DNA of 39,201 nt from a virus. The position numbers and the translations under genes are program-made. The first letter of the stretch is position 1. Every line of letters begins with the position of its first letter. The stretch is from IMG/VR virus record IMGVR_UViG_3300010938_000080, positions 1 to 39,201 of that record. One strand, written 5' to 3'. Shown piece after piece: positions 17,853 to 39,201 of this stretch. The notes beneath the pieces are model-generated. The model was not told where the DNA came from and ran no database searches. It was given only the letters and a program-made list of their open reading frames with translations.

Positions 17853-18284
17853 ATGAGTATCATTTCTGAAGTCTTGTCTGGAGGAGCAGAAGGTCTTTTG
17901 AAAGGTATTGGGAGCCTTGCAAAGGATATTAGAACAGCTATAACAGGAGAAGACCCTACAAAGAAAGCTGAGATTGAAGCAAAACTTTTAGAGTTGGAGT
18001 TCATGGCTGAAAAGGCTCAAACTGATATTAATCTTGAGGAAGCTAAGCATCCTAACTTATTTGTAGCAGGTTGGAGACCCTTTATAGGATGGGTTTGTGG
18101 TCTTGGAGTCTTCTATCACTTCATCGGCTTCTCTTTGTTAGAGTGGGTTGTTAAAACCTTTCATTTAGATATTGTGCCTCCTACACTTAATACTGAAGGA
18201 CTCATGAGTCTTGTTATAGCTCTTCTTGGGATGGGAGGGCTAAGAACCTTCGAAAAGGTAAAAGGAGTAGAAAGCAAACATTGA
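17853..18284 (+). CDS. Holin (3TM-type)
   Basis: This 143-residue protein has a charged N-terminal half that ends in NLEEAKHPNLFVAGWRPFIGW. Hydrophobic segments follow at about 76-95 and 112-130 (GVFYHFIGFSLLEWVV; LMSLVIALLGMGGL). This looks like the 'holin of 3TMs' family, whose signature is a run ending in WRPFIGW. It would open the inner membrane to let the endolysin reach the wall. It starts directly after the endolysin stop and shares its stop with the next start (TTGA). Confidence 0.75.
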   Translation: MSIISEVLSGGAEGLLKGIGSLAKDIRTAITGEDPTKKAEIEAKLLELEFMAEKAQTDINLEEAKHPNLFVAGWRPFIGWVCGLGVFYHFIGFSLLEWVVKTFHLDIVPPTLNTEGLMSLVIALLGMGGLRTFEKVKGVESKH

Positions 18285-19099
18285 TTATAAGATTTCTTCT
18301 TGTCTATCTCCTGGTCTTTTTCTTTGCTCTTGGCTTTAGAGGAGGATGTGAGTGTAATAACCATACTACTTCTCCAAACCATTTAGAGTCTAAGCCTGAA
18401 AGAGTAAAGGCCATATCTCCCAACTATTGTTTGCTTGCTTCTACAAACTTTAAGAATTTTATTGATATGGTAGCTAAGTATAAGGCTAATGCTTTAAAAA
18501 TCTTTAACTATTGTGGATGGGATATTCAATATTACCCATGGTCGGGGAGCATGGACAATCTTTTATGGGAGAGATTAGAAAATTTAAGGACTTTTATAGA
18601 TTATGCAAACGCTAAGGGTATTTGGGTAATATTAACTATGTTTCAGGATAATGCAGGAGGCGGAACGGAAGATATTCTTTCAAAAGACAAAAACATGTTA
18701 GCAAAGTATATACAAGGAATTGTAGAAGCCACAAAAGGTAGAATGGTTATCTATGAAACTTCCAATGAAATTGCTAATACAGATTTTCAAAAATGGGTTT
18801 TGAATGAACTTAAAAAGTATGAAGTTATAACTGCTTCTTACCAAGAAGATATTGGAGCAGATTATGTAATTTATCATACCCTTAGTCAAGTTTATATAGG
18901 AGGAGGAAGAGTTCATTCAAATGATGTGGCGGGATATCCTTCATATTATACTTTTGAAGGGTATAAGAATATTATAGATAGTGGTGGCAGTTTTGAGTTT
19001 CTTACTTATTGGGATGATAAAGGGAATCAACTAAAGACTCCAGAAGCTCAAGAATCTTTTTATGGAGAAGTGTTGAGGTATTTGCAAAATGTCCCTTGA
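18281..19099 (+). CDS. Lipoprotein-like glycoside hydrolase (clan GH-A-like)
   Basis: It starts at TTG 18281, overlapping the holin stop. Residues 1-22 are a hydrophobic signal-like segment followed by C23, although the lipobox (RGGC) is not classical. The rest looks like a small TIM-barrel hydrolase: NFKNFIDMVAKYKANALKIFNYC, then NAKGIWVILTMFQDN, and YETSNEIAN with N162-E163 as the typical acid/base of GH5-like enzymes. E239 in SFEFLTYWDD is a candidate nucleophile. Placed after endolysin and holin, it may degrade a cell-wall or envelope polysaccharide. The substrate is unknown. Confidence 0.6.
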   Translation: MIIRFLLVYLLVFFFALGFRGGCECNNHTTSPNHLESKPERVKAISPNYCLLASTNFKNFIDMVAKYKANALKIFNYCGWDIQYYPWSGSMDNLLWERLENLRTFIDYANAKGIWVILTMFQDNAGGGTEDILSKDKNMLAKYIQGIVEATKGRMVIYETSNEIANTDFQKWVLNELKKYEVITASYQEDIGADYVIYHTLSQVYIGGGRVHSNDVAGYPSYYTFEGYKNIIDSGGSFEFLTYWDDKGNQLKTPEAQESFYGEVLRYLQNVP

Positions 19100-21765: not shown

Positions 21766-22392
21766 TTATTTGAGATGAAGAACCTTATGAAGCTGAACTT
21801 GCAACCTTATAGGAACTTTTTTCATAAGTCTTAACAACTCTTCTCCAGAAATTTTAGAAGGTAGAACTGGAGATAGCAAAACATAGACACCCTTCTTAGG
21901 AGGATGCTTTTCCAAAAACTCTTCAACAAACTTTAGGTCTGAAGAATTTGCAACTACAAATTTTAAAGTGTCTCCTACCTTCAAAAAGGACAAGTTAGAA
22001 AGAAGAAAAGACTTTTCTTCTCCACTTGAAGGAGGCTTAACATCTACAATATTATAAACTCCATAAGGAACCTTCTCTAAGTTTAAACTTCCATTGGTTT
22101 CTAAAAGAGTAGTATAGTCTCTGCTTAATTCCTCAAGAAGAGGAATAGTAGCTTTTTGTATTAGAGGTTCACCTCCTGTAACTTCTACAATCTTAGGACG
22201 GAATTTTCTCGTCATTTTCAAAAGAGTTTCTAAGGTATAAACCTTATATGAACCATTAATAGCATATCTTGTATCACACCACTTGCACCTTAAATTACAT
22301 CCGTGCAATCTTATAAAAGTGCACAAATAACCTTGGTATGGTCCTTCTCCTTGAACACTTTCAAATACTTCTACAACTCTTAACTTTTCCAT
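21766..22392 (-). CDS. queE: 7-carboxy-7-deazaguanine synthase QueE
   Basis: A radical SAM enzyme of 208 residues that converts 6-carboxytetrahydropterin to 7-carboxy-7-deazaguanine, the third step of the preQ0 pathway. The cluster-binding motif CNLRCKWCD (C32, C36, C39) is intact and spaced CX3CX2C. QGEGPYQG follows the start, and TGGEPL (72-77) matches the SAM-binding region of QueE. Its length is normal for the family. The start overlaps the end region of queC, with AAGGAGG before the ATG. It is the last gene of the early block and ends 1 base from the convergent late block. Confidence 0.93.
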   Translation of the reverse strand: MEKLRVVEVFESVQGEGPYQGYLCTFIRLHGCNLRCKWCDTRYAINGSYKVYTLETLLKMTRKFRPKIVEVTGGEPLIQKATIPLLEELSRDYTTLLETNGSLNLEKVPYGVYNIVDVKPPSSGEEKSFLLSNLSFLKVGDTLKFVVANSSDLKFVEEFLEKHPPKKGVYVLLSPVLPSKISGEELLRLMKKVPIRLQVQLHKVLHLK

Positions 22393-22394
22393 AT

Positions 22395-23066
22395 CTACCT
22401 CCTTAATAGTGGGTCTTCTACCCCGACTTCTCTGAAGCCTTTAGCTCTTAATAAACAAGCATGACATTTTCCGCAGGGAGGATACACCCCTTTGTAACAA
22501 GTATGAGAATATTTCAAAGCTTCCATACAGCCAGGTAGACTCAAAGCAAGTTTTACTGTTTCAGCTTTGGACATGTAGATTAAAGGAGTATGAATATAAA
22601 AGTCAGCCTTTCCAAGACCTGTTCTAAGGGCTTGAGTCATATTGTGTATGAATTCAGGTCTACAATCTGGATATCCTCCATAATCAACGGCACTTACTCC
22701 TATTACAATATGGTCAATTCCTTTTGCAACTGCTCTATTTGCAGCTAACACAAGAAACAATATGTTCCTTCCGGGGATGAAAGTAGGTTCAATCCCTCCT
22801 GGAAGATGCTCTACAGAAGCATAAGTCTTTACCTCTTCCCTAGGGTTTATAAGAGGACTTGTTCCTCTTAAAATTGCACCTATTTTAAGCACTTCATGTG
22901 TTTCAACTTCAGCAAGAGAGGCAATCTTATTGGCTGCTTCTACTTCAAGTGAATGTCTCTGTCCATACAAAATAGTTAGAGAATGCACCTTTTCAAAATT
23001 TTGTTTTGCCCAATATAGAGCAGTTGTAGAATCCTGCCCTCCACTTAAACAAACTAAAGCATCCAT
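22395..23066 (-). CDS. queC: 7-cyano-7-deazaguanine (preQ0) synthase QueC
   Basis: This 223-residue ATP-dependent enzyme makes preQ0 from 7-carboxy-7-deazaguanine and ammonia. The PP-loop SGGQDS (8-13), the FIPGRN segment (97-102) and GVSAVDYGGYPDCRPEF are all typical of QueC. The zinc site is C190, C198, C201 and C204 (CYKGVYPPCGKCHAC). It is a normal stand-alone QueC, not a fusion with an amidotransferase, so no sign of the archaeosine-type G+ route. It lies just upstream of queE, with an AAGGAGG ribosome binding site. Confidence 0.94.
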   Translation of the reverse strand: MDALVCLSGGQDSTTALYWAKQNFEKVHSLTILYGQRHSLEVEAANKIASLAEVETHEVLKIGAILRGTSPLINPREEVKTYASVEHLPGGIEPTFIPGRNILFLVLAANRAVAKGIDHIVIGVSAVDYGGYPDCRPEFIHNMTQALRTGLGKADFYIHTPLIYMSKAETVKLALSLPGCMEALKYSHTCYKGVYPPCGKCHACLLRAKGFREVGVEDPLLRR

Positions 23067-23102
23067 TTCTACCTCCTTATTCCTTATTGATTTCTATTCT
23101 CA

Positions 23103-23285
23103 TCACTTCTTGTGTTTATTATACATGCTCACTACTCTAAAGTAATTATCTCTCCATCTTGCTGCTGCTTTTTGCCATTCTTCTGTTTGTTTAGTCCAAT
23201 CTCCCTCGCTAACATTAGCCAATACCACCCATAACATCTCTGCAGCATCTCTGATTTCTCTATCCAAATCTCTTTCTTCTGACAT
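23103..23285 (-). CDS. Small unknown protein (60 aa)
   Basis: A helical, acidic protein of 60 residues (MSEERDLDREIRDAAEMLWVVLANVSEGDWTK...). AAGGAGG lies before the ATG, 2 bases after the DUF3987-like gene. WVVLANVSEGDW and WQKAAARWRDNYFRV are conserved-looking. Similar short proteins of this type are frequent in phages; the role is not known. Confidence 0.65.
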   Translation of the reverse strand: MSEERDLDREIRDAAEMLWVVLANVSEGDWTKQTEEWQKAAARWRDNYFRVVSMYNKHKK

Positions 23286-23287
23286 TT

Positions 23288-24511
23288 TTACCTCCTTAGT
23301 TTAAATTTTCCTTCTTCCCACACAACCTTCTTAGTTCTTAAGAGAAGTCTAACAACCTCGTCATACTCTGAAGGCCTTGAAAGTTGAGGCCATACAATCT
23401 CGAGAAGTTTTGCATCTTCTATTTCTTCTTCAAATTCTACAATCTCGAGAACCTTTTGAACAATCCTCATCTTTGGCTCCATAGAAATATAGTCAATAAT
23501 TCTTAGAACATCTTCTTCAATAGAGCTGTAGATATCTATAGCATCTTTAAAGGTTTGAGCTTCCATCTCTAAGGAATAGTTGTAAGATAGCTGCAAGATG
23601 ATTGCAAGTCTAAGAATATGGTCTTGCTTTCTTTCTAAATACTCAGCTTTAGGACCTGGAGGCACAGAAGGAAGATTCATATACCAATCTTCATACAACT
23701 TACTACATTCAGAAGTCATTCTCATTTCTCCTTCAACTTTTGCAATCTTAACTATCTCCTCCAACACCTTCTTCCTTAATTCTGGATTGTCAGGGTTAGG
23801 TTTTGTTCTTTTTTCCCATCCTGGAGGAAGAGGAACAAGAAGAAGTCTTGAAAGGAATCCTATTTGGGAAGCATTTCTTGGAAGAATATCATTCATCCAG
23901 TCAGGAGTTGAAGCTGCTAAAAGACTTATACATACATCATATAATCTTTGGTCTCCTCTCAAAATTGTATCACTTTCCCATTCATCTGGACAATCATAAA
24001 TATCAGTCAAAAATATAGGAAGACCTACAAGATACTTCTCTTTACCAAGAAGGGTTCCAAATTCTGAACTGTAGATAAGTCCTTGGGCCTTTTTCCTTAT
24101 AACAGAAATAGTAGTTGGGTCAGTTCCTTTTGTAACTTCTGGAGTAATAAGAGGAGAAGATAAACTTTTTGCTAAAGCTTCAGGAGTAGTCTTGGCTGCT
24201 AAAAACCTTGGCTGAAGGTTCGGAGGAAGCTCAAGAAGAAGCTCTTTAACTCCTCTTAAACAGGAGCTCTTGTTACCCTTTCCTTGTGGTCCTAAAAGAA
24301 CTATCCAAGGATTTGGGAAGAGAAGAGGAATGAGTTTTGGGCTTCCTCTTTGAATCCAAACCTTTCTCTTTATTACAGCTCCAATACCTCCTGCAAGGGC
24401 AAAGAATCCATACCTTGAGCAGTATTGAACATTCACCTCTTTTAGGTAGTTGTAGTAGATTCTAAATACTCCCTTAGAAGGGATGTATTTTTCAATTGCA
24501 TCTTCTATCAT
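23288..24511 (-). CDS. Replicative helicase-like ATPase (DUF3987-type)
   Basis: This 407-residue protein has a P-loop-like GPQGKGNKSS (74-83) in the setting PWIVLLGPQGKGNKSSCL. It is followed by YSSEFGTLL (about 148-156) and an IFLTDIYDC segment (about 166-174) that suits a Walker B position. The pattern resembles the DUF3987 family of phage and plasmid helicase-like ATPases. No DnaB helicase or primase is seen elsewhere in the window, so this may be the replicative helicase. It is translated from ATG 24511 (overlapping the transglycosylase-like gene). Confidence 0.62.
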   Translation of the reverse strand: MIEDAIEKYIPSKGVFRIYYNYLKEVNVQYCSRYGFFALAGGIGAVIKRKVWIQRGSPKLIPLLFPNPWIVLLGPQGKGNKSSCLRGVKELLLELPPNLQPRFLAAKTTPEALAKSLSSPLITPEVTKGTDPTTISVIRKKAQGLIYSSEFGTLLGKEKYLVGLPIFLTDIYDCPDEWESDTILRGDQRLYDVCISLLAASTPDWMNDILPRNASQIGFLSRLLLVPLPPGWEKRTKPNPDNPELRKKVLEEIVKIAKVEGEMRMTSECSKLYEDWYMNLPSVPPGPKAEYLERKQDHILRLAIILQLSYNYSLEMEAQTFKDAIDIYSSIEEDVLRIIDYISMEPKMRIVQKVLEIVEFEEEIEDAKLLEIVWPQLSRPSEYDEVVRLLLRTKKVVWEEGKFKLRR

Positions 24512-25226
24512 TACACACCTTTCGAAGAAGAGCTATGTTTCTGTATACTAAACTCTTTTGGGCTGGAGAGAGTTCCCAGTAAGAAGACCACTTTCCTAAA
24601 CCTCTTGGACACTCTTCAAGTTTATAACCAAAATAAGCAGCTTTTATAGGTTTAACAGTATCAAGAGACAAGAGGTCTTTCATAGGCCAAGTTCTTATCT
24701 CATCTAAATGCCTAAGACCTAACATGTGGTGCCATCTCCTAACAAACTTGTGTCCATAGGTTTTGAGAAAGGTGGGTCTGTCATTTAAAAAAGATAGACC
24801 AATGGGACCATCAAATTTGAAATGATTGACCATAAACTCGTAACATTGCCACCATTCTTCAAGAGTTTGGCCTTGAGGAATAACTCCTACTCTATAAGGA
24901 GTGCCTTTTGAAATCTCAAGAAACTCTTGAGTTAAATCTATAGTTGCATTCATGAAGAAAAGTTGGTCAGGAGCAAATACTACATCTGCTTGGATTTCCA
25001 AAGCTATCTCTTTAAAGGTCTTGCCGTCAAGGGGTCTATTTTCTTCATACATACCATTATCTAATATGATAAGTTTCTTTTCTTGAGTCTTAAGAGTCTT
25101 GTAAAAATTCAGATAGCAAGAGTTCTTTAGACACTCTGTAGCAATTACAAAACTTATATCTGTTAGTTGCTCAACCTCTCGTGCAAAATCCCAGTCTGAA
25201 GTTGGAACTTCCATACTTATTAGCAT
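24492..25226 (-). CDS. dpdA: Short TGT/DpdA-like DNA 7-deazaguanine transglycosylase
   Basis: This 244-residue protein resembles the tRNA-guanine transglycosylase barrel. ILDNGMYEE (D56) matches the DSGG acid position. A base-pocket-like VVFAPDQL has D87, GVIPQG and HHMLGLRHLDE follow, and SLDTVKPIKAAYFG (D189) matches the nucleophile segment FDCVLPT. The C-terminal cysteine zinc site of true TGT enzymes is missing. Phage proteins of this type are proposed to exchange guanine in DNA for preQ0-type bases. Next to preQ0 genes this is the expected final enzyme. The exact subfamily cannot be settled from sequence alone. GGGGAGG before ATG 25226 supports the start. Confidence 0.75.
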   Translation of the reverse strand: MLISMEVPTSDWDFAREVEQLTDISFVIATECLKNSCYLNFYKTLKTQEKKLIILDNGMYEENRPLDGKTFKEIALEIQADVVFAPDQLFFMNATIDLTQEFLEISKGTPYRVGVIPQGQTLEEWWQCYEFMVNHFKFDGPIGLSFLNDRPTFLKTYGHKFVRRWHHMLGLRHLDEIRTWPMKDLLSLDTVKPIKAAYFGYKLEECPRGLGKWSSYWELSPAQKSLVYRNIALLRKVCNDRRCN

Positions 25227-25750
25227 TTCAGAACCTCCCCTATAATTCGGATGTTATGAAAAGCTAACTCCAGTTGGGAAGCTGTAAGAGAAGTATCCCA
25301 GCTTATTGGATACAACTTCTTGGGCCTTCTCTCTCTTTCTTCCAAATCAATACCTAAAATAGCTGCTTGGAAGGGTATAGCTGTTATAAGCGCTTTGGGT
25401 GGAAGTCTTCTTAGTTCGTCCAAATTCTTAAACTCAAAGAAGTAATACTTCTTAGAAGTTTGAGGAGTGAGAAGAAGAGTTCTTAAAGAGTTCCAATGTA
25501 GAGCCACATTAGGAAAGCAAGCTTCTAAAACCTTTAGTCTTGTTTTTCCTTGAACCCATACAGGAATCTCCTCACCTCCTTTGAGAAGGAAGAAAAGGGT
25601 TTTTGGTTTAGATTCTTTTCTCAATTCTTCAGGAATTGTCCATACTTCTGTTTTACCTAAAGGAGGCCAATCAGAATATTTGGCTACTCCTTTTACACCC
25701 TTTATTTCTAAAACTTCATCTACATAAGAATAGGGAGATATTATTATCAT
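25220..25750 (-). CDS. Unknown protein coupled to the transglycosylase gene (176 aa)
   Basis: This 176-residue protein overlaps the DpdA-like gene by 7 bases. It starts MIIISPYSYVDEVLEIKGVKG and has a central LFFLLKGGEEIPVWVQGKTRLKVLEACFP. The C-terminal half has LPPKALITAIPFQAAILGID. It is a mixed alpha/beta sequence with no cysteine cluster and no clear motif. Its tight coupling suggests that it helps in the DNA modification or replication step. I do not recognise a family. Confidence 0.55.
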   Translation of the reverse strand: MIIISPYSYVDEVLEIKGVKGVAKYSDWPPLGKTEVWTIPEELRKESKPKTLFFLLKGGEEIPVWVQGKTRLKVLEACFPNVALHWNSLRTLLLTPQTSKKYYFFEFKNLDELRRLPPKALITAIPFQAAILGIDLEERERRPKKLYPISWDTSLTASQLELAFHNIRIIGEVLKC

Positions 25751-27979
25751 CTAACTTACCTCCTTCCAATTTTTTCCTATCTTTGCTTCTACAGGAAACC
25801 TCTCCATTAGTTCAGGGCTTGAGGTTTCCATGATTTCTTTGAACCTTTCAAACCTTTTCTCGTCCATTTCTTCTTCACAAACCAGTTGGTCATGTGTATT
25901 TATTACAATATGGAACCCTTCTTCTTCGAGTCTAAAAGCCGCATTCCACACAACATCTATAGCTGTTCCTTGAACAGGAGCATTCATAGCTTGAGGAAGT
26001 CTTTCTGCATATCTTTTTCTACCATAAAAAGTTTCTACATATCCACGGTCTTCAAAAAACTTTGGAATAGTTTCTCTAAAATGTTTATGAAGGTTTGTGA
26101 ACCTTTTGAGCACAGCCATTTGCCACTTCTCAGCTATCTCTTTAGAAACCTGAAACTCTTGTGCAATATCTTTGGGACCTCTCCCATAAAAAGTTCCAAA
26201 CACTACAGCCTTTGCTCTTAGTCTGGCCTGAGTTTCTCCATAAAGTTCTGTAAGAGGATATACTTCATCAATCCACTCTCTTACTTCATTGTGAATATCT
26301 TTTCCGCTTTTTAAAATCTTTAACATTCCCTCGTCCTTAGCCAAGAGAGCTGCTATCCACACTTCCAAACTTTTATAGTCTCCTCCAAAGAACACTTTGC
26401 CTTCTTCAGGAATAAAGATATCTCTCATATGTTTAGGAACATTTTGAATATTTGGATTTTTGCATGCCCATCTTCCAGTTTCTGTGCCTGTGGGTTTCCA
26501 GTCTGGATGGACCCTTCCGTCTTCTCCAATTCTTTTATAAACTCCTTCACAATAAGTGCTTGCAAGTTTACTTAGCTCTCTGTAAGAGAGGAGTTGGTTT
26601 AAGGCTTGTTTTTCTGGAAACTCTCCTACACACTTACGAAGAATGTCTGTAAGAACTTCTTCATCTACACTTAACTGCTTTTTTCCTTTTCTTGCACTTA
26701 TAGGAATAGGAAAGTTAAGAGTCTCAAAGAGAAGTTTGGAGACTTGTTTAGGAGAAGAAATGTCTACACCATATTGCTGAGAGAACTGAGTTTCTAAAGT
26801 TTCGATTTGAGGAAGAAGCTGAGCATAATGAAGAGTTAAAACATCCTTATCAACTTTTATGCCTCTTATTTTCATTTTTATAGCTAACTCATCTTCTTTC
26901 AACATTCTTTGCATCAATTCTTTTTTTACATAAGGGAATTGCATAAGAGCACTTCTTAAGGTAACATCAGCATCTTTACAGTTAACTATAGATAGTTGAG
27001 TTGCATACATTTTTTCTGTTTTGTAAGGAGGAAAGTTGGTGTATAGAGTTCTTAAAAAGTTTAAGCGCTTTGGAAGAGAAGAGTCAATAAGATACATACC
27101 ATCAAGAGTATCCCATACAGAAGAAACATCTATGTTCCATTTAACCTTAATAAAGGTTTTATCAAACAAGCCATGATGGAAGATGAAGTTTTTGTGTTGA
27201 CTCAAAAAGGTTTGGATTTGAGAAAGATGATAGCGAAGGTATGACCCACCAAATTGATAAACTTTTCCAGGAGCAACACAAAAAGCTATGCCTATAATAT
27301 CATCCTTCAAAGGGTCTAAACCTCCTCCTCTTTCTTCATCTTCTTCTTCTTTTCTTTTTGTAGTTTCAATATCAACAGCTACAAGAGTTTCTGGGTCTAA
27401 AAAAGAGAAAGGCCACTCAGGGGGGTCAATAATATACTCAACTTCTTCATCTCCACTTTGTGGAATACAAACTTCTCCTTTAGCTTTTAAGAGGTCCCAG
27501 ACTACTACTTGGAACATGTTTCTATTCTGCATCAAATACCTTGGATGGTAGGTTATTAATACTTTTCCTATTTTAAGACCTCTCCAATCTGAGATAGGAT
27601 GCAAGTCTTTACCTGTAAGAGAAGTTGCAGCTGTTTCTCCTAAAGCTATAATAGTTTTAGGTTTGACTTTTTCAATCTCCTCTTCTAAAAAGGGCTTACA
27701 CGCTAAGATTTCATCTTCTTCAGGAGTCCTATTATTAGGAGGCCTACACTTAACTATATTTGTAATATATACATCTTTCCTAAAGAGACCTGCATGATAC
27801 AAAAGAGCATTTAAAATCCTTCCGGAACCTCCTACAAAAGGTTCTCCTTTTTCATCTTCTTCTTGACCAGGAGCTTCACCAACAAACATAAGGTCATTTG
27901 GGTAAGGACCTACTCCTAAGACAATATTCTTCCTATGAAGAGAGAGTCTGCATTTGTGGCAATCAAAGGATGTTTGCAT
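25751..27979 (-). CDS. Uracil-DNA glycosylase fused to family A DNA polymerase
   Basis: Residue numbers count from ATG 27979 (742 aa); a GTG at 28003 would add 8 residues. Residues 1-170 are a family 4-type uracil-DNA glycosylase: Fe-S ligands C7, C10, C78 and C94, motif GEAPGQEED (34-42) and HPRYL (145-149). Residues 195-345 are the 3'-5' exonuclease, with D203/E205 (AVDIET), D273 (HHGLFD) and D336/D338. The polymerase has motif A D534 (GGDYKSLE), motif B R586/K590/F594/Y598 (RLRAKAVVFGTFYG) and motif C HDQ (696-698). Motif C usually reads HDE; the catalytic Asp D697 is kept. It replicates the phage genome. UDG-polymerase fusions are known in some phages, for example SPO1. Confidence 0.9.
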   Translation of the reverse strand: MQTSFDCHKCRLSLHRKNIVLGVGPYPNDLMFVGEAPGQEEDEKGEPFVGGSGRILNALLYHAGLFRKDVYITNIVKCRPPNNRTPEEDEILACKPFLEEEIEKVKPKTIIALGETAATSLTGKDLHPISDWRGLKIGKVLITYHPRYLMQNRNMFQVVVWDLLKAKGEVCIPQSGDEEVEYIIDPPEWPFSFLDPETLVAVDIETTKRKEEEDEERGGGLDPLKDDIIGIAFCVAPGKVYQFGGSYLRYHLSQIQTFLSQHKNFIFHHGLFDKTFIKVKWNIDVSSVWDTLDGMYLIDSSLPKRLNFLRTLYTNFPPYKTEKMYATQLSIVNCKDADVTLRSALMQFPYVKKELMQRMLKEDELAIKMKIRGIKVDKDVLTLHYAQLLPQIETLETQFSQQYGVDISSPKQVSKLLFETLNFPIPISARKGKKQLSVDEEVLTDILRKCVGEFPEKQALNQLLSYRELSKLASTYCEGVYKRIGEDGRVHPDWKPTGTETGRWACKNPNIQNVPKHMRDIFIPEEGKVFFGGDYKSLEVWIAALLAKDEGMLKILKSGKDIHNEVREWIDEVYPLTELYGETQARLRAKAVVFGTFYGRGPKDIAQEFQVSKEIAEKWQMAVLKRFTNLHKHFRETIPKFFEDRGYVETFYGRKRYAERLPQAMNAPVQGTAIDVVWNAAFRLEEEGFHIVINTHDQLVCEEEMDEKRFERFKEIMETSSPELMERFPVEAKIGKNWKEVS

Positions 27980-28193
27980 AATAGGCCCTCTTAAGAATTT
28001 CACAATAATGGATAATTTTCTCCAAGTCTCTTATGGAGAGAGGCTTGTTAAGTTCTCTTCTGTTTCTAAAGGCATATTTCATAATATTGGCAAGAGCAAA
28101 GTCTCTTAACATATCTCCTGCCTCAAAAAGGTCTAAAGGTTCTACACCTTTTTTAGTTTTGTAAGCTTCATTTCCTTTTTCTTCTTTTTTCAT
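27963..28193 (-). CDS. DUF3310-like small protein (76 aa)
   Basis: The product has LFEAGDMLRDFALANIMKYAFRNRRELNKPLSIRDLEKIIHYCEIL, which matches the pattern of the phage DUF3310 family (a helix ending in NAIKYL-R, then a helix starting with DLxKAxxY). It overlaps the start of the UDG-polymerase gene by 17 bases. The family is common in phage replication regions with no proven role. Confidence 0.62.
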   Translation of the reverse strand: MKKEEKGNEAYKTKKGVEPLDLFEAGDMLRDFALANIMKYAFRNRRELNKPLSIRDLEKIIHYCEILKRAYYANIL

Positions 28194-28774
28194 GTTTTTC
28201 CTCCTTTCCCATGAACTAAAGACATAAACTCATTTCTTGCATCCCCTTGTTCTAAGAAGACGCCTTTCAGGCAAGTAGTTACTATAGTAGCTGGGCTTGT
28301 TACACCTCTTGCCCTTAAGCAAAGATGTTCCCCAACAACATGGACTGCAACTCCTTTAGGCTTTAAAGCTTCCCAAAGACCAGATGCAATGGAGTCTGTT
28401 ACTTCCTCTTGTAACATTAAGCCTCTACAAAAGTAGTCTGCTATTCTTGCCAATTTGCTTAGTCCAACAAGTAGACCATTTGGAATGTAGGCTACATCAA
28501 TAGTTAGTTCCACCCTTTCAAGGTGATGGGGACATCTTGTCCATGACTTATGACCTAACATAGTAACCATAGAAGTGTAGTTTGAGGGGAAGACTTTAAA
28601 GAGATTTTTTTCAGCTTTTCCTTTATCTAATTCTTTAATAAGGATTTTTGCTACTCTTTTAGGGGTCTCTTTAAGGTCTTCATTTTTTAAGTCATAGTTG
28701 AGAGTTTGAAGAATTTCTTTAACAGATTTTGTGATAAGTGTAAGCTTTTTTTGTTTAGTCTTGGAGTATGGCAT
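28190..28774 (-). CDS. folE: GTP cyclohydrolase I (FolE)
   Basis: FolE makes dihydroneopterin triphosphate from GTP and feeds QueD. The 194-residue length is normal. Zinc ligands C81 and H84 (RCPHHL, where most homologues have CEHH) and C152 (EHLCLRARGV) are intact. VAYIPNGLLVGLSKLARIADYF and LQEEVTDSIASGLWEAL are the well-known core of the enzyme. It overlaps queD by 20 bases, with an AAGGAGG signal before the ATG, so both are made together. Confidence 0.93.
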   Translation of the reverse strand: MPYSKTKQKKLTLITKSVKEILQTLNYDLKNEDLKETPKRVAKILIKELDKGKAEKNLFKVFPSNYTSMVTMLGHKSWTRCPHHLERVELTIDVAYIPNGLLVGLSKLARIADYFCRGLMLQEEVTDSIASGLWEALKPKGVAVHVVGEHLCLRARGVTSPATIVTTCLKGVFLEQGDARNEFMSLVHGKGGKT

Positions 28775-29111
28775 ATCCTCCTTCTCCTTCTCTTAATTGA
28801 AGAGTAAGTTTGAAAGAAGAAAGAAGTTTGGAATTAGAAAGGGCTTTTCTTATCCATAACAAAATGTTTTCACAAGTAGGTTTATAAATGAAAGTGTTTA
28901 GACTGTTATGGTCTAAAAGACGAATAGCCTCTTCTACTTCCTTAGCAAGAACCGCAAAGTCAAGAACCATACCAGTGTCCTCATTAAGTTCTCCTTCTAC
29001 TTCTACTGTAAGGGTCCAAGTGTGACCGTGCATCCATCTGCATTTTCCTTTGTAATCTGGAAGATAATGTGCTGAGTCGAACTTAAAACATTTGCCTATT
29101 TTCATTTTCAT
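28755..29111 (-). CDS. queD: 6-carboxytetrahydropterin synthase (QueD)
   Basis: This 118-residue member of the PTPS family converts dihydroneopterin triphosphate to 6-carboxytetrahydropterin, the second step to preQ0. Zinc ligands are H15 (FDSAHYLPDY), H28 and H30 (CRWMHGH). The catalytic C24 lies four residues before HGH as in QueD. LLDHNSLN and PTCEN (78-82) are the other active-site motifs. The start is ATG 29111 after TTAAGGAGG. A second ATG lies two codons later. The leader before it contains a hairpin that could mask the ribosome binding site. Confidence 0.92.
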   Translation of the reverse strand: MKMKIGKCFKFDSAHYLPDYKGKCRWMHGHTWTLTVEVEGELNEDTGMVLDFAVLAKEVEEAIRLLDHNSLNTFIYKPTCENILLWIRKALSNSKLLSSFKLTLQLREGEGGYAILQD

Positions 29112-31743: not shown

Positions 31744-32048
31744 TTTATTTCTCCTTCTTTAGGGTTTAAAAACCAAACCTCAAAAGGAGGAGCTGTTTTA
31801 AGAAGAAGAATTGTTTTTCCTTTTTCGTCTACAGCTTGATACTTTGTATAATACTTTCCTTCTTTTACAAAGAAACTTTCTTTGACTTCAGGATAGTTTT
31901 CTTTAATAGGAATAAACAAACCTTTTAAATCTTTATCCTCATTGGGGGATTCATGATACATTCTCCAAGCATATCCAAGAATTAATCCTACAAGAAAGAG
32001 TAAGACAAAAATAACAACTTGTTCATAAAAGTCTAATTCTTTGTGCAT
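31740..32048 (-). CDS. Single-pass membrane protein (102 aa)
   Basis: The 102-residue product has a short N-terminus, a clear transmembrane helix at about 9-28 (EQVVIFVLLFLVGLILGYAW), and a soluble C-terminal domain rich in Lys and Glu with alternating strands (YTKYQAVDEKGKTILLLKTAPPFEVWFLN). It overlaps the upstream gene by 1 base. Function unknown; an early membrane-acting host modulator is possible. Confidence 0.6.
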   Translation of the reverse strand: MHKELDFYEQVVIFVLLFLVGLILGYAWRMYHESPNEDKDLKGLFIPIKENYPEVKESFFVKEGKYYTKYQAVDEKGKTILLLKTAPPFEVWFLNPKEGEIK

Positions 32049-32335
32049 TATTCCTCCCCTATTAGCTTAGTTAAAGAAATACCCATTCCTGTCTTCTTGA
32101 GGTGACTTGGAAGTATTTTTCTGCCTCCAATTACAACCAACTTTTCTACCCATAACGACCCCTTTTTATTGATTGATACTCTTATTGTTGTTACATCTTT
32201 TTGAATCATTACCTCATTAGGGTCTTTAAACCAGATGCTTCCGATAAACCTGTCTCCATCCTTATACTCTACATACACCTCCAAACCCCAATATTCTGTT
32301 TCATCACCCTTTGTAATTATTCCATATACTTTCAT
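32048..32335 (-). CDS. Small paralogous protein, copy C (95 aa)
   Basis: This protein belongs to a three-member family in this window (others at 33765 and 34456). Shared features are an opening VYGI/VYGVV, GLEVY, FIGSIWFKDPNEV, IRV and then LWVEKLVV followed by KILPSHLKKTG. It is a compact beta-rich fold of about 95 residues. Copy C is the most divergent. AGGAG precedes ATG 32335. The family is not known to me. Confidence 0.65.
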   Translation of the reverse strand: MKVYGIITKGDETEYWGLEVYVEYKDGDRFIGSIWFKDPNEVMIQKDVTTIRVSINKKGSLWVEKLVVIGGRKILPSHLKKTGMGISLTKLIGEE

Positions 32336-33764: not shown

Positions 33765-34070
33765 TCACCTCCTTCCTTTTAGGAGAGACAAAAGAGCAAG
33801 TTTCTCCCCATATCCAGTCACTTTAAGAAGATGGTCAGGAAGTATTTCTCTTTCTCCTTCTTCAATAACTAACTTATCCAACCAAAGAGCAGCTTTTCCT
33901 GTAACTTGCACTCTTATTTCACTTATATACCCTTCAACTTTTACTTCTTTAAGGTCTTTAAACCAGATAGTCCCAATATACTTGTTAGAAGTTCCTCTTT
34001 CATCCCCTTGATATATTTCTATACCTTGAGTTTTTCTTTCTTCGTCCTTTCTAACTACTCCATATATCAT
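33765..34070 (-). CDS. Small paralogous protein, copy B (101 aa)
   Basis: Copy B of the three-member family. It is closest to copy A (34456): both share MxYGVV, TQGIE/AQGIE, VQV-GKA-LW, and EILPDHLLK. Around that last motif the two genes are nearly identical in DNA over about 20 bases, suggesting a recent duplication. Function unknown; several copies of one small protein in an early region suggest a dose or multi-target role. Confidence 0.65.
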   Translation of the reverse strand: MIYGVVRKDEERKTQGIEIYQGDERGTSNKYIGTIWFKDLKEVKVEGYISEIRVQVTGKAALWLDKLVIEEGEREILPDHLLKVTGYGEKLALLSLLKGRR

Positions 34071-34455: not shown

Positions 34456-34764
34456 CTAACCCAAAAGAGACGAAAGAGAAAGTTTCTTTCCTACTCCAAA
34501 TTTAAGAAGATGGTCAGGAAGTATCTCTCCAACCTCTTCTTCCTTTTCCTCAATAATTAATTTATTCAACCAAAGAGTAGCCTTTCCTACAACTTGCACT
34601 CTTATTCCATTTATATACCCTTGAACTTCTACCTCTTTAGGGTCTTCAAACCAAACAACTCCAATATATTCATCCTCATCTTTTTCATCTCTTTCATCTA
34701 ACTGATATACTTCTATACCTTGAGCCTCTTCTCTTTTACCCCTTTCAACTACTCCATACACCAC
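34456..34764 (-). CDS. Small paralogous protein, copy A (102 aa)
   Basis: Copy A of the three-member family (others at 33765 and 32048). It starts with GTG 34764, after GGGAGGTGATTTAG. An acidic insertion (DERDEKDEDEY) lies before the conserved YIGVVWFEDPKEV. The order of copies A, B and C along the leftward operon with unrelated genes between them points to duplication with later shuffling. Its upstream side is the inverted-repeat region. Confidence 0.65.
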   Translation of the reverse strand: MVYGVVERGKREEAQGIEVYQLDERDEKDEDEYIGVVWFEDPKEVEVQGYINGIRVQVVGKATLWLNKLIIEEKEEEVGEILPDHLLKFGVGKKLSLSSLLG

Positions 34765-36088: not shown

Positions 36089-37658
36089 TGAAGACGAAAA
36101 AATTAGGCAAGTTATTGAGACTCTTTTTGTTATTCAAAACAAAAGAGGAGAATTTGTCCCATTCATTCTCAACAATATCCAAAAAATTGTTCTCTCCTCC
36201 ATTTGTTCTTTTCCAAGAACCACCATCCTAAAATTTCGACAAGGAGGAGTTACAAGCATTGTTATGGCCTATTTTCTTGTAAAATGTCTTAGTTCAAGTG
36301 TAAGATGTGTTATGCTTGCTCATGACAAAGACCATACAGAAAAACTTCTCTTTAGGGCACAACTTATGTTAAAACATTTAAGAGGTCCAAAAGCTATGGT
36401 CTCAAGGTTAAATGAGGAAGAAATCGTCTTCCCTAAAACAGATTCAACCTTCTATATAGGAACTGCAGGTTCTAAACAATTTGGAAGGTCTGATACTATA
36501 ACCCACTTGCATTGTTCTGAACTTGCTTTCTGGAAAGACCCTCAAGAACTTGTTTCTGGATTATATCAAGCTGTTCCACATGATAGTGGAAAAGTTGTAG
36601 AGGAAACTACAGGAAATGGATGGGGCTCTTGGCATCATAGAAGGTGGGTAAATGCTAAACAAGGAAAAGGAAGGTTGCATACTCTTTTTCTTCCTTGGAA
36701 CCTTAACCAAGAATATAGGTCAAAAAATCCTCTTCTCTATCCTCTTACAGAAGAAGAAACCTTCCTTCAAATCCAACATAATCTTGATGAAGAACAAATT
36801 CAATGGAGAAGAGAAAAGATTGAAGAATTTGAAGGAGACGAAACAAGATTCAAACAAGAATATCCTCTTACAGAAGATGAAGCCTTTAGACTTACAGGAG
36901 GTTCCATATTCCCCAATCTTCAAGTTGTTGCAGACCCAAGATGGAAGCAAAATAGGTTAGAAGGTCATCCTTCTTCAAAATACACTTATATAATAGGAGC
37001 AGATGTTTCAGGAGGAACAGGTAATGACTATTCCTCTATCCAAGTTCTTTGTTTGGAACATCTTGAGCAAGTATATGTCTACAAAACCAATACCCTTGAC
37101 CCTCTTTCTTTTGCAGAACTTCTTGTTAAAGTAGGTAAAGAATTTCATGAAGCCTACATAAATGTAGAATCTAACCAACATGGACTTTCAGTTCTTGCTT
37201 TTCTAAAAAGGGTGTATCCTCCTCACAAACTCTACAGAAGAAAGCTCTCCTCTTCTCTCTTTTCCATTCCAGGACAGGAATATGGATTCAGAACTCTAAA
37301 AACTACCAAGCCCTATCTTGTCAATATTGCTCAGAACCTTATAAAACAAGGACTTATTATCCATGACTTAGAAACCTGTGAAGAGTTAAAAGGTTTTGTA
37401 GAAAGTGAAGAAGGAAGGCTGGAAGGGACAACAAAACATGACGACAATGCCATTGCTCTTATGCTTGCTTGCTTGTGGGTGGTTAGGTTAAGTCCTTTTC
37501 ATGCATCTTCTTCTATTTCATCTTCTTTGGACGATAGTTCAAAGGAAAAAAAGTTTGTCATAAAATTTGAAGATATTTTCAAAGAAAAAAAGAAAGGTCT
37601 CCTTGGCGACCAACTAAATAAAGGAGAAAGATATGGCGAGTATTCTCTTCGTATCTAA
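36081..37658 (+). CDS. terL: Terminase large subunit
   Basis: The packaging motor and nuclease, 525 residues from ATG 36081 (a TTG at 36072 gives three more, and residue numbers below count from that TTG). The ATPase has a degenerate Walker A-like KFRQGGVTS (54-62) and a Walker B-like HLHCSE with E150, in the usual KQFGRSDTITHLHCSELAFW context. The RNase H-like nuclease has D311 (GADVSGGTGND), E366 (NVESN) and D457/D458 (HDDNAIALM). It overlaps terS and, at the end, the ATP-grasp gene. Confidence 0.93.
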   Translation: MNNEDEKIRQVIETLFVIQNKRGEFVPFILNNIQKIVLSSICSFPRTTILKFRQGGVTSIVMAYFLVKCLSSSVRCVMLAHDKDHTEKLLFRAQLMLKHLRGPKAMVSRLNEEEIVFPKTDSTFYIGTAGSKQFGRSDTITHLHCSELAFWKDPQELVSGLYQAVPHDSGKVVEETTGNGWGSWHHRRWVNAKQGKGRLHTLFLPWNLNQEYRSKNPLLYPLTEEETFLQIQHNLDEEQIQWRREKIEEFEGDETRFKQEYPLTEDEAFRLTGGSIFPNLQVVADPRWKQNRLEGHPSSKYTYIIGADVSGGTGNDYSSIQVLCLEHLEQVYVYKTNTLDPLSFAELLVKVGKEFHEAYINVESNQHGLSVLAFLKRVYPPHKLYRRKLSSSLFSIPGQEYGFRTLKTTKPYLVNIAQNLIKQGLIIHDLETCEELKGFVESEEGRLEGTTKHDDNAIALMLACLWVVRLSPFHASSSISSSLDDSSKEKKFVIKFEDIFKEKKKGLLGDQLNKGERYGEYSLRI

Positions 37659-38907
37659 AGGAGGAGATGGTTATGGGCTTGCAACAAGACTTGCACAAGA
37701 AGGACATCTTGTTAGGTTCTACATCTATGATAAAGAGATTAAAGGTGCAGGAGAGGGGTTCAAGAATCCCAGGCTCATTTCCTCTCTTACAGGAGCCTCT
37801 TTGGATGGAATCGACCTTATTGTTTTCGACATGGTTGGACTTGGACACATTGCAGAAGTCTTGGCAAAGAGAGGAAAATTGGTTCTTGGTGGAGGGAGGT
37901 TCATGGACCTTATAGAATTGGATAGGAGTTATGGGCAGAAGGTTGCTGCTCTTTCTTCTCTTAAAATTCCTCCTACACATAAATTCCAAACTTCTGAAGA
38001 AGGCTTGAGATTCCTTGAAAAAGTTCAAAAACCTTATGTCCTTAAACCTCTTGGTAACAAGCCTACCAACCTAACACTTGTCTCCAAAACTTCTGGAAAT
38101 GAACTCCTTAAAGACTTTCTCTCTTCTAAAGAAGAGGCTAAAGAGATTGGTAGTTTTCTTCTTCAAGAAAAAATTGAAGGCATAGAAATCTCTACAGAAG
38201 GTTGGTTTAATGGTAAAAACTTTATAGCCTTCAACCATACTATTGAAAGAAAGAGATTTATGGAAGGAAATAAAGGACCAAATACAGGTTGTATGGGCAA
38301 TATTGTTTGGACCTGCGAAGAAGATAAACTTGTCAAGTATGCACTTCTTCCTCTTACCTCTTTCTTAAAAAGGCAAAATTACATAGGTCCTCTTGATGTC
38401 AATTGCATTGTTACTCCTCAAGAGGCCTATTTTCTTGAATTTACAGCCAGATTTGGATATGATGCCATTTATGCCCTTTTAGAGCTCTTGAAAGGTTCCC
38501 TTTTTGACCTCCTTTTTGGATGTGCCACAGGAACCTCTCTTCCTTCTTTTAAACCCTATTATGGTATAGGAGTTCGTCTATCTCTTGCACCTTACCCTCT
38601 TGGAGAAGTTGAAGATTTCAAACCTTTTAAAGGTTTGAGAGTTGTAGAGATTCCTGAAGAAGCTAAAAAGCATGTATGGCTACATGATGTTATGCTAAAA
38701 GATAATGAAGTAGTTCTTTCAGGAACAGGAGGTGCTTTTGCTTGTGTAACAGCATGGGGAGAGAATATAAGAGAGTGTAGGAGAAGAGTGTATAGAACCA
38801 TTTCCAATATTTCTTTAACAAATGATATTCAATATAGAGAAGACATTGGAGCTGATAAAGAGGAAGAACAAATTGAAGAACTTAGAGGCTTAGGATGGAT
38901 ATCTTGA
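37633..38907 (+). CDS. PurD-like ATP-grasp ligase
   Basis: This 424-residue protein has the length and layout of glycinamide ribonucleotide synthetase. The N-terminal domain starts SILFVSKGGDGYGLATRLA. The ATP-grasp core has YVLKPLGNKPT (K138), IEISTEGWF, GPNTGCMG (215-222; PurD has GPNTGGMG) and FLEFTARFGYDAIYALL, where PurD has LEFNVRFGDPE. Loss of the DPE and of the Asn metal ligand suggests a changed substrate. It overlaps terL by 26 bases. A role in making a modified nucleotide or an amide bond during infection is possible. Confidence 0.72.
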   Translation: MASILFVSKGGDGYGLATRLAQEGHLVRFYIYDKEIKGAGEGFKNPRLISSLTGASLDGIDLIVFDMVGLGHIAEVLAKRGKLVLGGGRFMDLIELDRSYGQKVAALSSLKIPPTHKFQTSEEGLRFLEKVQKPYVLKPLGNKPTNLTLVSKTSGNELLKDFLSSKEEAKEIGSFLLQEKIEGIEISTEGWFNGKNFIAFNHTIERKRFMEGNKGPNTGCMGNIVWTCEEDKLVKYALLPLTSFLKRQNYIGPLDVNCIVTPQEAYFLEFTARFGYDAIYALLELLKGSLFDLLFGCATGTSLPSFKPYYGIGVRLSLAPYPLGEVEDFKPFKGLRVVEIPEEAKKHVWLHDVMLKDNEVVLSGTGGAFACVTAWGENIRECRRRVYRTISNISLTNDIQYREDIGADKEEEQIEELRGLGWIS

Positions 38908-39035
38908 GTTTAAGACAAAGACTTTTACAAGACCTTCTTCATTTATTTGTTGTCAAACTCATTCATGAAGAAGAATATAACAAAAGACTTATCCAAGCAA
39001 AAATGCGCTCTATAGGCTGGAAAATTTACAACTAA
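38895..39035 (+). CDS. Small unknown protein (46 aa)
   Basis: A 46-codon frame from ATG 38895 overlaps the end of the ATP-grasp gene and stops 5 bases before ATG 39041. The product is helical (MDILSLRQRLLQDLLHLFVVKLIHEEEYNKRLIQAKMRSIGWKIYN in outline: leucine-rich then basic). Tight packing supports it; the sequence alone does not. TTAGGATGG is a weak ribosome binding context. Confidence 0.45.
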   Translation: MDILSLRQRLLQDLLHLFVVKLIHEEEYNKRLIQAKMRSIGWKIYN

Positions 39036-39040
39036 CTAAA

Positions 39041-39201
39041 ATGCCTCTAAAACCTTATATAGAAGACTTTGTAGAAGAATATCTCAAGCCCTTTAAAGAA
39101 GCTTGGGAAGAGGAACAAGCCCTAAGAAAGTTTAGGAAAAAGTATACAGACACATGGGCTCCTGAAGGTGAAGGCTTAAGAAGGATAAAGGCTGAAGAGA
39201 T
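39041..39201 (+). CDS. Start of the large virion-associated protein (continued at base 1)
   Basis: ATG 39041 opens a frame that runs off the window end, encoding MPLKPYIEDFVEEYLKPFKE onward. From its twelfth codon it matches the protein read from base 1, so both are the same gene cut by the ends (or two near-identical copies). No Shine-Dalgarno sequence is seen before this ATG. The likely full gene has 885 residues. Confidence 0.75.
   Translation, partial: MPLKPYIEDFVEEYLKPFKEAWEEEQALRKFRKKYTDTWAPEGEGLRRIKAEE
39075..39201. repeat. Right copy of the near-identical terminal sequence
   Basis: Aligned to bases 1-127 without gaps and with 10 transitions. The match reaches the very last base. It is the other end of the overlap described at position 1. 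Confidence 0.85.

Follow-up and report, generated by a model that had tools for sequence, protein, structure and literature searches.

The IMG/VR virus record IMGVR_UViG_3300010938_000080, which represents an uncultured phage known from its metagenomic record only, was analysed over its full 39,201 bases, referred to here as the window. Between 29111 and 21766 its minus strand carries a co-directional block of genes in the order QueD, FolE, DUF3310, UDG-PolA, a 176-aa protein, a 244-aa protein, DUF3987, a 60-aa ORF, QueC and QueE, with neighbouring genes spaced by -41 to +36 nt and, for most of them, a good ribosome-binding site. The replication proteins of the block are a 750-aa family A DNA polymerase (PolA) whose N-terminal part is a family-4 UDG domain (25751..28003; PF00476 3e-66, PF03167 1.9e-35, TIGR00758 above cut-off) and a 407-aa DUF3987 primase/helicase-like protein (23288..24511; PF13148 1e-10, phrog_14296 'DNA primase' 9.5e-17); a small DUF3310 protein of 76 aa (27963..28193; PF11753 7.3e-9) is encoded upstream of the polymerase. 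An earlier note on this DNA had described the modification genes as interleaved with polymerase and helicase genes, and both UDG-PolA and the DUF3987 primase/helicase indeed lie inside the same block. Gene order, the sole basis for the idea, suggests that modification may be tied to replication.

The genes folE, queD, queE and queC are all present with intact active-site motifs, as the earlier note had proposed, judged by Pfam, NCBIfam, PHROG and PDB matches together with residues read from the sequence. QueD, a 6-carboxytetrahydropterin synthase of 118 aa (28755..29111, minus strand), matches PF01242 (PTPS) at 1.3e-24, TIGR03367 at 1.6e-24 and PDB 4ntm at 9.3e-12, and retains the catalytic residues C24 and H15/H28/H30. 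The 194-aa GTP cyclohydrolase I, FolE (28190..28774, minus; PF01227 8.1e-44, PDB matches 1.6e-29), keeps its catalytic CPHH and QE. QueE, a radical-SAM 7-carboxy-7-deazaguanine synthase of 208 aa (21766..22392, minus), is recognised by Radical_SAM (4.9e-12), by phrog_2076 'QueE-like' (1.2e-39), by TIGR04349 (9.7e-53, below cut-off) and by similarity to PDB QueE 6nhl (1.8e-11), and carries the motifs CNLRCKWC and GGEP. The 7-cyano-7-deazaguanine synthase QueC (223 aa; 22395..23066, minus; PF06508 6.7e-62) scores 195 bits with TIGR00364, where the cut-off is 150, matches PDB 3bl5 at 2.8e-45, and has SGGQDS, YGQRHSLE, IPGRN, YPDC, CYKG and four Zn cysteines. For synthesis of preQ0, QueC needs SGGxDS, YxQxHxxE, xPxRN, YPDC, a tyrosine in the Zn region and four cysteines (PMC13329287); the window QueC reproduces this canonical signature save for a Cx7C spacing in place of Cx8C. 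Among phage QueCs of about 50% identity, many have lost the Zn cysteines.

Neither QueF, nor a QueC fused to an amidotransferase, nor any other tailoring gene had been recognised at first reading, and Pfam models run over the scanned ORFs agree: no QueF, QueF-L, ArcS or Gat-QueC (the dG+/dPreQ1 branch) was found among them, and QueC has no amidotransferase domain. FolE does give weak QueF matches, which fit the T-fold that FolE and QueF share.

Amid these genes is the 244-aa protein (24492..25226, minus), previously described as a short TGT/DpdA-like protein and here predicted, from its model, structural matches and invariant residues, to be a short DpdA-type DNA guanine transglycosylase. Pfam and NCBIfam hold no family for it, its only matches being PHROG 19058/20335 ('unknown function'), and the classical TGT model (PF01702), run at E 1, matched all control genomes but neither the window nor any of five relatives. 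An AlphaFold2 model built with 46 homologues (pLDDT 93.1, pTM 0.89) is predicted to adopt the TGT fold. The structure search on which the earlier note had staked its idea matched TGT and DpdA along the full length of the protein: Foldseek against the PDB gave TGT at E 3e-7 and the DNA preQ0 insertase DpdA (7ui4) at E 5e-7, and VIA-align gave Z 18.8 to preQ0-bound TGT (2.7 A over 222 residues) and Z 18.5 to 7ui4 (2.9 A over 230 residues). Eight columns are invariant among the 46 aligned homologues, D56, D87, T95, Q118, R150, H167, G170 and D189, and the window protein keeps every one. D189 is the predicted nucleophile, D56 the predicted general base, and D87 and Q118 are predicted to bind the base. 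When the profiles of the family and of phage DpdA1 are aligned (P 9.8e-5), D56, D87, H167 and D189 correspond to D72, D114, H196 and D215 of 9g DpdA; at the position of Gln118, DpdA1 carries His.

By sequence the protein belongs to a short-DpdA family present in 119 other viral loci, among whose members are proteins of CP220, Cellulophaga phiST and Flavobacterium immuto (tblastn E 1e-5; phmmer 1.5e-9 to 1.4e-6; family HMM 2.3e-53, the window sequence itself being in the profile). We take this family to correspond to the subfamily that Cui et al. 2023 (NAR 51:9214) named DpdA3 and that reportedly allows complete replacement of guanines. Its members are short single-barrel enzymes encoded beside preQ0 genes, and the window contributes the most divergent of all, with about 16-27% identity to the others, the shortest protein of those compared and the longest branch of the tree (4.45 changes per column). 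Given that branch, its specificity may have changed and its placement in the tree is unsure. Single-protein scans of IMG/VR with the 244-aa protein, PolA and TerL confirmed no close relative.

The association of this family with preQ0 synthesis is strong. Family loci were gathered using pairs of close homologues as scan queries, and at least one preQ0 gene was found at 79 of the 80 loci of at least 12 kb, the exception being CP220, whose QueC is encoded elsewhere in the genome; after thinning to 50 representatives the count was 29 of 30. Of the 80, three (L005, L075 and L085) had been reached via QueC or a que-linked record, and the other 77 were fetched without using que genes. PolA occurs at 74 of the 80 loci and QueC at 26, and in family A3 loci the que genes are often followed by the short DpdA and then by UDG-PolA. 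In phages phiST and MA9V-3 the short enzyme is retained and QueC is absent genome-wide, so the choice of base can depend on which genes are present; a CDG-based product is predicted for these two phages.

In Campylobacter phage CP220, 100% of G is replaced by dADG (PMC8306585). A 2019 survey placed Campylobacter phages of the CP220 type among que-bearing phages without DpdA (PMC6884629); CP220 is, in our analysis, a member of the short-DpdA family, and has no Pfam-detectable TGT. The same survey raised, for que phages lacking a recognised DpdA, an RNA-directed role (PMC6884629), by which the que genes and transglycosylase would supply more queuosine-type modification of host tRNA for phage translation, leaving DNA unmodified. 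The pathway is common to tRNA Q and G+ synthesis, and the 244-aa model is structurally as close to TGT as to DpdA. Yet the protein spans only the barrel core of the roughly 370-aa TGT and is undetected by PF01702, its relative CP220 has fully modified DNA, and the gene lies in a DNA replication block and adjoins the DNA polymerase in many relatives, all of which makes action on RNA very unlikely.

Modification could also enter with the nucleotides: starting from free preQ0, the short transglycosylase would make a modified dGMP or dGTP that the phage polymerase incorporates, which would lead to complete replacement. The gene stands beside PolA in the window and in a third of the representatives, adjoins nucleotide kinase-like or MazG-like genes in several relatives, and encodes a barrel without the extra C-terminal regions of the longer DpdA and TGT enzymes. 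That said, the window block contains no recognised kinase gene, known TGT chemistry acts on polymers, and Crippen et al. 2019 reportedly saw no pool of dADG nucleotides during infection by phages of the CP220 type; exchange at the level of nucleotides appears most unlikely.

Insertion into the DNA polymer is the reading we prefer, and with good confidence: preQ0 would be made by FolE, QueD, QueE and QueC and inserted into phage DNA by the 244-aa enzyme, so that the guanines of this DNA are probably chemically disguised. In the infected cell the four enzymes would convert GTP to the free base preQ0, and the transglycosylase, perhaps aided by the 176-aa protein as a non-catalytic subunit, would swap guanine in phage DNA for it. 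Attack of D189 on C1' would yield a covalent sugar-enzyme intermediate with departure of guanine, and preQ0, held by D56, D87 and Q118, would then fill its place. The modified G would be expected to block host restriction enzymes. As to the product, the CP220 QueC departs from the canonical signature (YxSxH, FPDC), in line with its ADG product; because the window QueC keeps the preQ0-making signature, dPreQ0 is favoured, and we consider it somewhat likelier than dADG, itself a possible product, or another derivative. The window thus adds a further member to a known class, phages predicted to carry 7-deazaguanine DNA, and is unusual within it for a duplicated enzyme gene and a loss of restriction sites. 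With its compact gene set and 244-residue enzyme, it would be an appealing minimal system for writing 7-deazaguanine into DNA.

Comparison with longer DpdA enzymes places the window system more precisely. Bacterial DpdA 7ui4 has the same fold, but shares only 13% identity with the window enzyme, and is 436 rather than 244 aa long; no dpdB-K island is present in the window. Phage DpdA1, of the Enterobacteria phage 9g type, aligns with the window enzyme at the catalytic Asp positions and the HG.G motif and is encoded in a similar gene block beside replication genes, yet it forms a separate family by sequence, and this classical DpdA was found alongside the short-DpdA family in none of the 119 loci. 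The DpdA2 of Vibrio phage nt-1 is TGT-related and its HMLG motif and QG/HG region match the window enzyme weakly, but it is 464 aa long and the similarity is marginal (E 0.026). A single phage contig (L015:5930-6568 and L015:9695-10627) encodes a DpdA1-like protein plus a second, 212-aa TGT-like protein.

Directly upstream of the 244-aa gene sits the gene for the 176-aa protein (25220..25750, minus), whose C-terminal part appears to be a degenerate paralogue of the transglycosylase, a relationship overlooked in the earlier note. The last 75 residues of this protein can be aligned with residues 166-237 of the transglycosylase (Smith-Waterman score 77, reached in 0 of 5000 shuffles, Z 9.8; Z 12.9 for the C-terminal part alone), and the other 38 window proteins tested in the same way gave Z of at most 1.7. 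The phmmer comparison of the two proteins gives E 0.0034. No similarity to the 244-aa protein is detectable in the N-terminal 100 aa. The family profile matches the 176-aa protein weakly (E 0.05), so the case for paralogy is built on direct comparison with its neighbour. The SLD segment that holds the predicted nucleophile D189 is deleted. A single-sequence AlphaFold2 model of the protein reached pLDDT 33, too low to be informative. We found no homologue in phages (best E about 7) and none in the fetched loci except the 244-aa protein; nor was a second short-DpdA family member seen near the enzyme in other loci, and the adjacent degenerate paralogue was seen in none of the other loci. The 176-aa gene was rejected as the missing half of a split gene, since the C-terminal ends of the two proteins match each other. 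The sequence comparison gives good support to a probable origin by tandem duplication, after which the copy lost the nucleophile; that the product is a non-catalytic partner subunit is a guess.

A further feature missed by the earlier note is the near-total loss of certain tetranucleotides. Over the entire genome (1-39201) there are 0 GATC (75 expected), 0 GTAC (79), 3 CTAG (113) and 2 ACGT (15), with AGCT, TGCA, TTAA and others at normal frequency; the minima in 100 second-order Markov simulations were 55 GATC, 56 GTAC and 87 CTAG. Triple loss of GATC, GTAC and CTAG is absent from all 241 other loci of at least 9 kb compared, and a contig scan with QueC found no genome sharing the loss of the three sites. 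Restriction systems for exactly CTAG, GATC and GTAC are found in Methanocaldococcus jannaschii, which is mentioned for comparison only and not as a host assignment. Comparable purging of sites has been described in haloviruses under restriction (PMC7230728). CP220 (L004) avoids only CATG (6 against 125 expected), despite all its G being reported modified.

Were every G protected, loss on this scale would be surprising; modification can therefore not be taken to be complete or sufficient, and we put near-complete replacement of G at slightly under an even chance. The site loss also weakens the idea of modification as the sole protection of the phage, and raises the question of whether 7-deazaguanine guards against all restriction enzymes, as is usually assumed. 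One account is that the system was acquired by a lineage already made restriction-proof by site loss, with modification being partial or serving instead in evasion of nucleases or CRISPR, in packaging or in protection from depurination. The extent of the purge and its singularity among the compared loci fit such a history, as does the lack of site avoidance in phiST, Youna2, immuto, MA9V-3 and most IMG/VR loci with the enzyme. However, purging has gone just as far in the que block as elsewhere in the genome (GATC 0 of 13 expected, GTAC 0 of 13, CTAG 1 of 26), which means either that the block has had a long residence or that its donor genome was purged in a similar way. Moreover, L206, a metagenomic phage whose transglycosylase is of this family, also has 0 GATC, 0 CTAG and 0 CATG (72, 20 and 38 expected), so both strategies can coexist. 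Prior site loss is, on balance, possible though on the unlikely side.

The duplicated gene and the missing sites might instead be joined in a single, tentative scheme that we hold to be rather doubtful. The copy without its nucleophile would have become a dedicated 176-aa subunit, joining the 244-aa enzyme in a heterodimer and positioning DNA or choosing guanines, and GATC, GTAC and CTAG would have been lost since modification leaves these sites unprotected. The eukaryotic QTRT1/QTRT2 tRNA-guanine transglycosylase likewise pairs a catalytic subunit with a non-catalytic homologue. In the window, by contrast, homology can be demonstrated only for the C-terminal third of the 176-aa protein, a complex of the two proteins is hypothetical, and DNA is the expected substrate. 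If true, the scheme would provide a phage DNA counterpart of QTRT1/QTRT2, and the degenerate paralogue offers a testable case of a homodimeric transglycosylase turning into a two-part machine.

Several features elsewhere in the window deserve mention. A PurD-like ATP-grasp ligase (37633-38907, plus strand; GARS_A 2.4e-14; TIGR00877 over its full length, below cut-off) directly follows the terminase and has distant homologues in other uncultured phages; a role as a tailoring enzyme is not supported, the gene being on the opposite strand, beside the terminase, and having homologues also in phages without an annotated que gene, such as MW202796. A thermophilic host was likewise considered and set aside, the signals from amino-acid composition being mixed. 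A cellulase (GH5)-like protein (18281-19099, plus strand; PF00150 8.3e-6) is encoded amid virion genes, and three proteins of about 100 aa (32048-32335, 33765-34070 and 34456-34764, minus strand) appear by eye to be mutual paralogues (YGVVxxGxxxxxxGIEVY..., WLxKLVI...). Finally, an imperfect repeat of the encoded stretch EYLKPFKEAWEEEQALRKFRKxYTDTW... occurs at both ends of the record (38908-39201 and 1-150), suggesting that the genome is near-complete and circularly permuted, and was broken inside a repeat gene.
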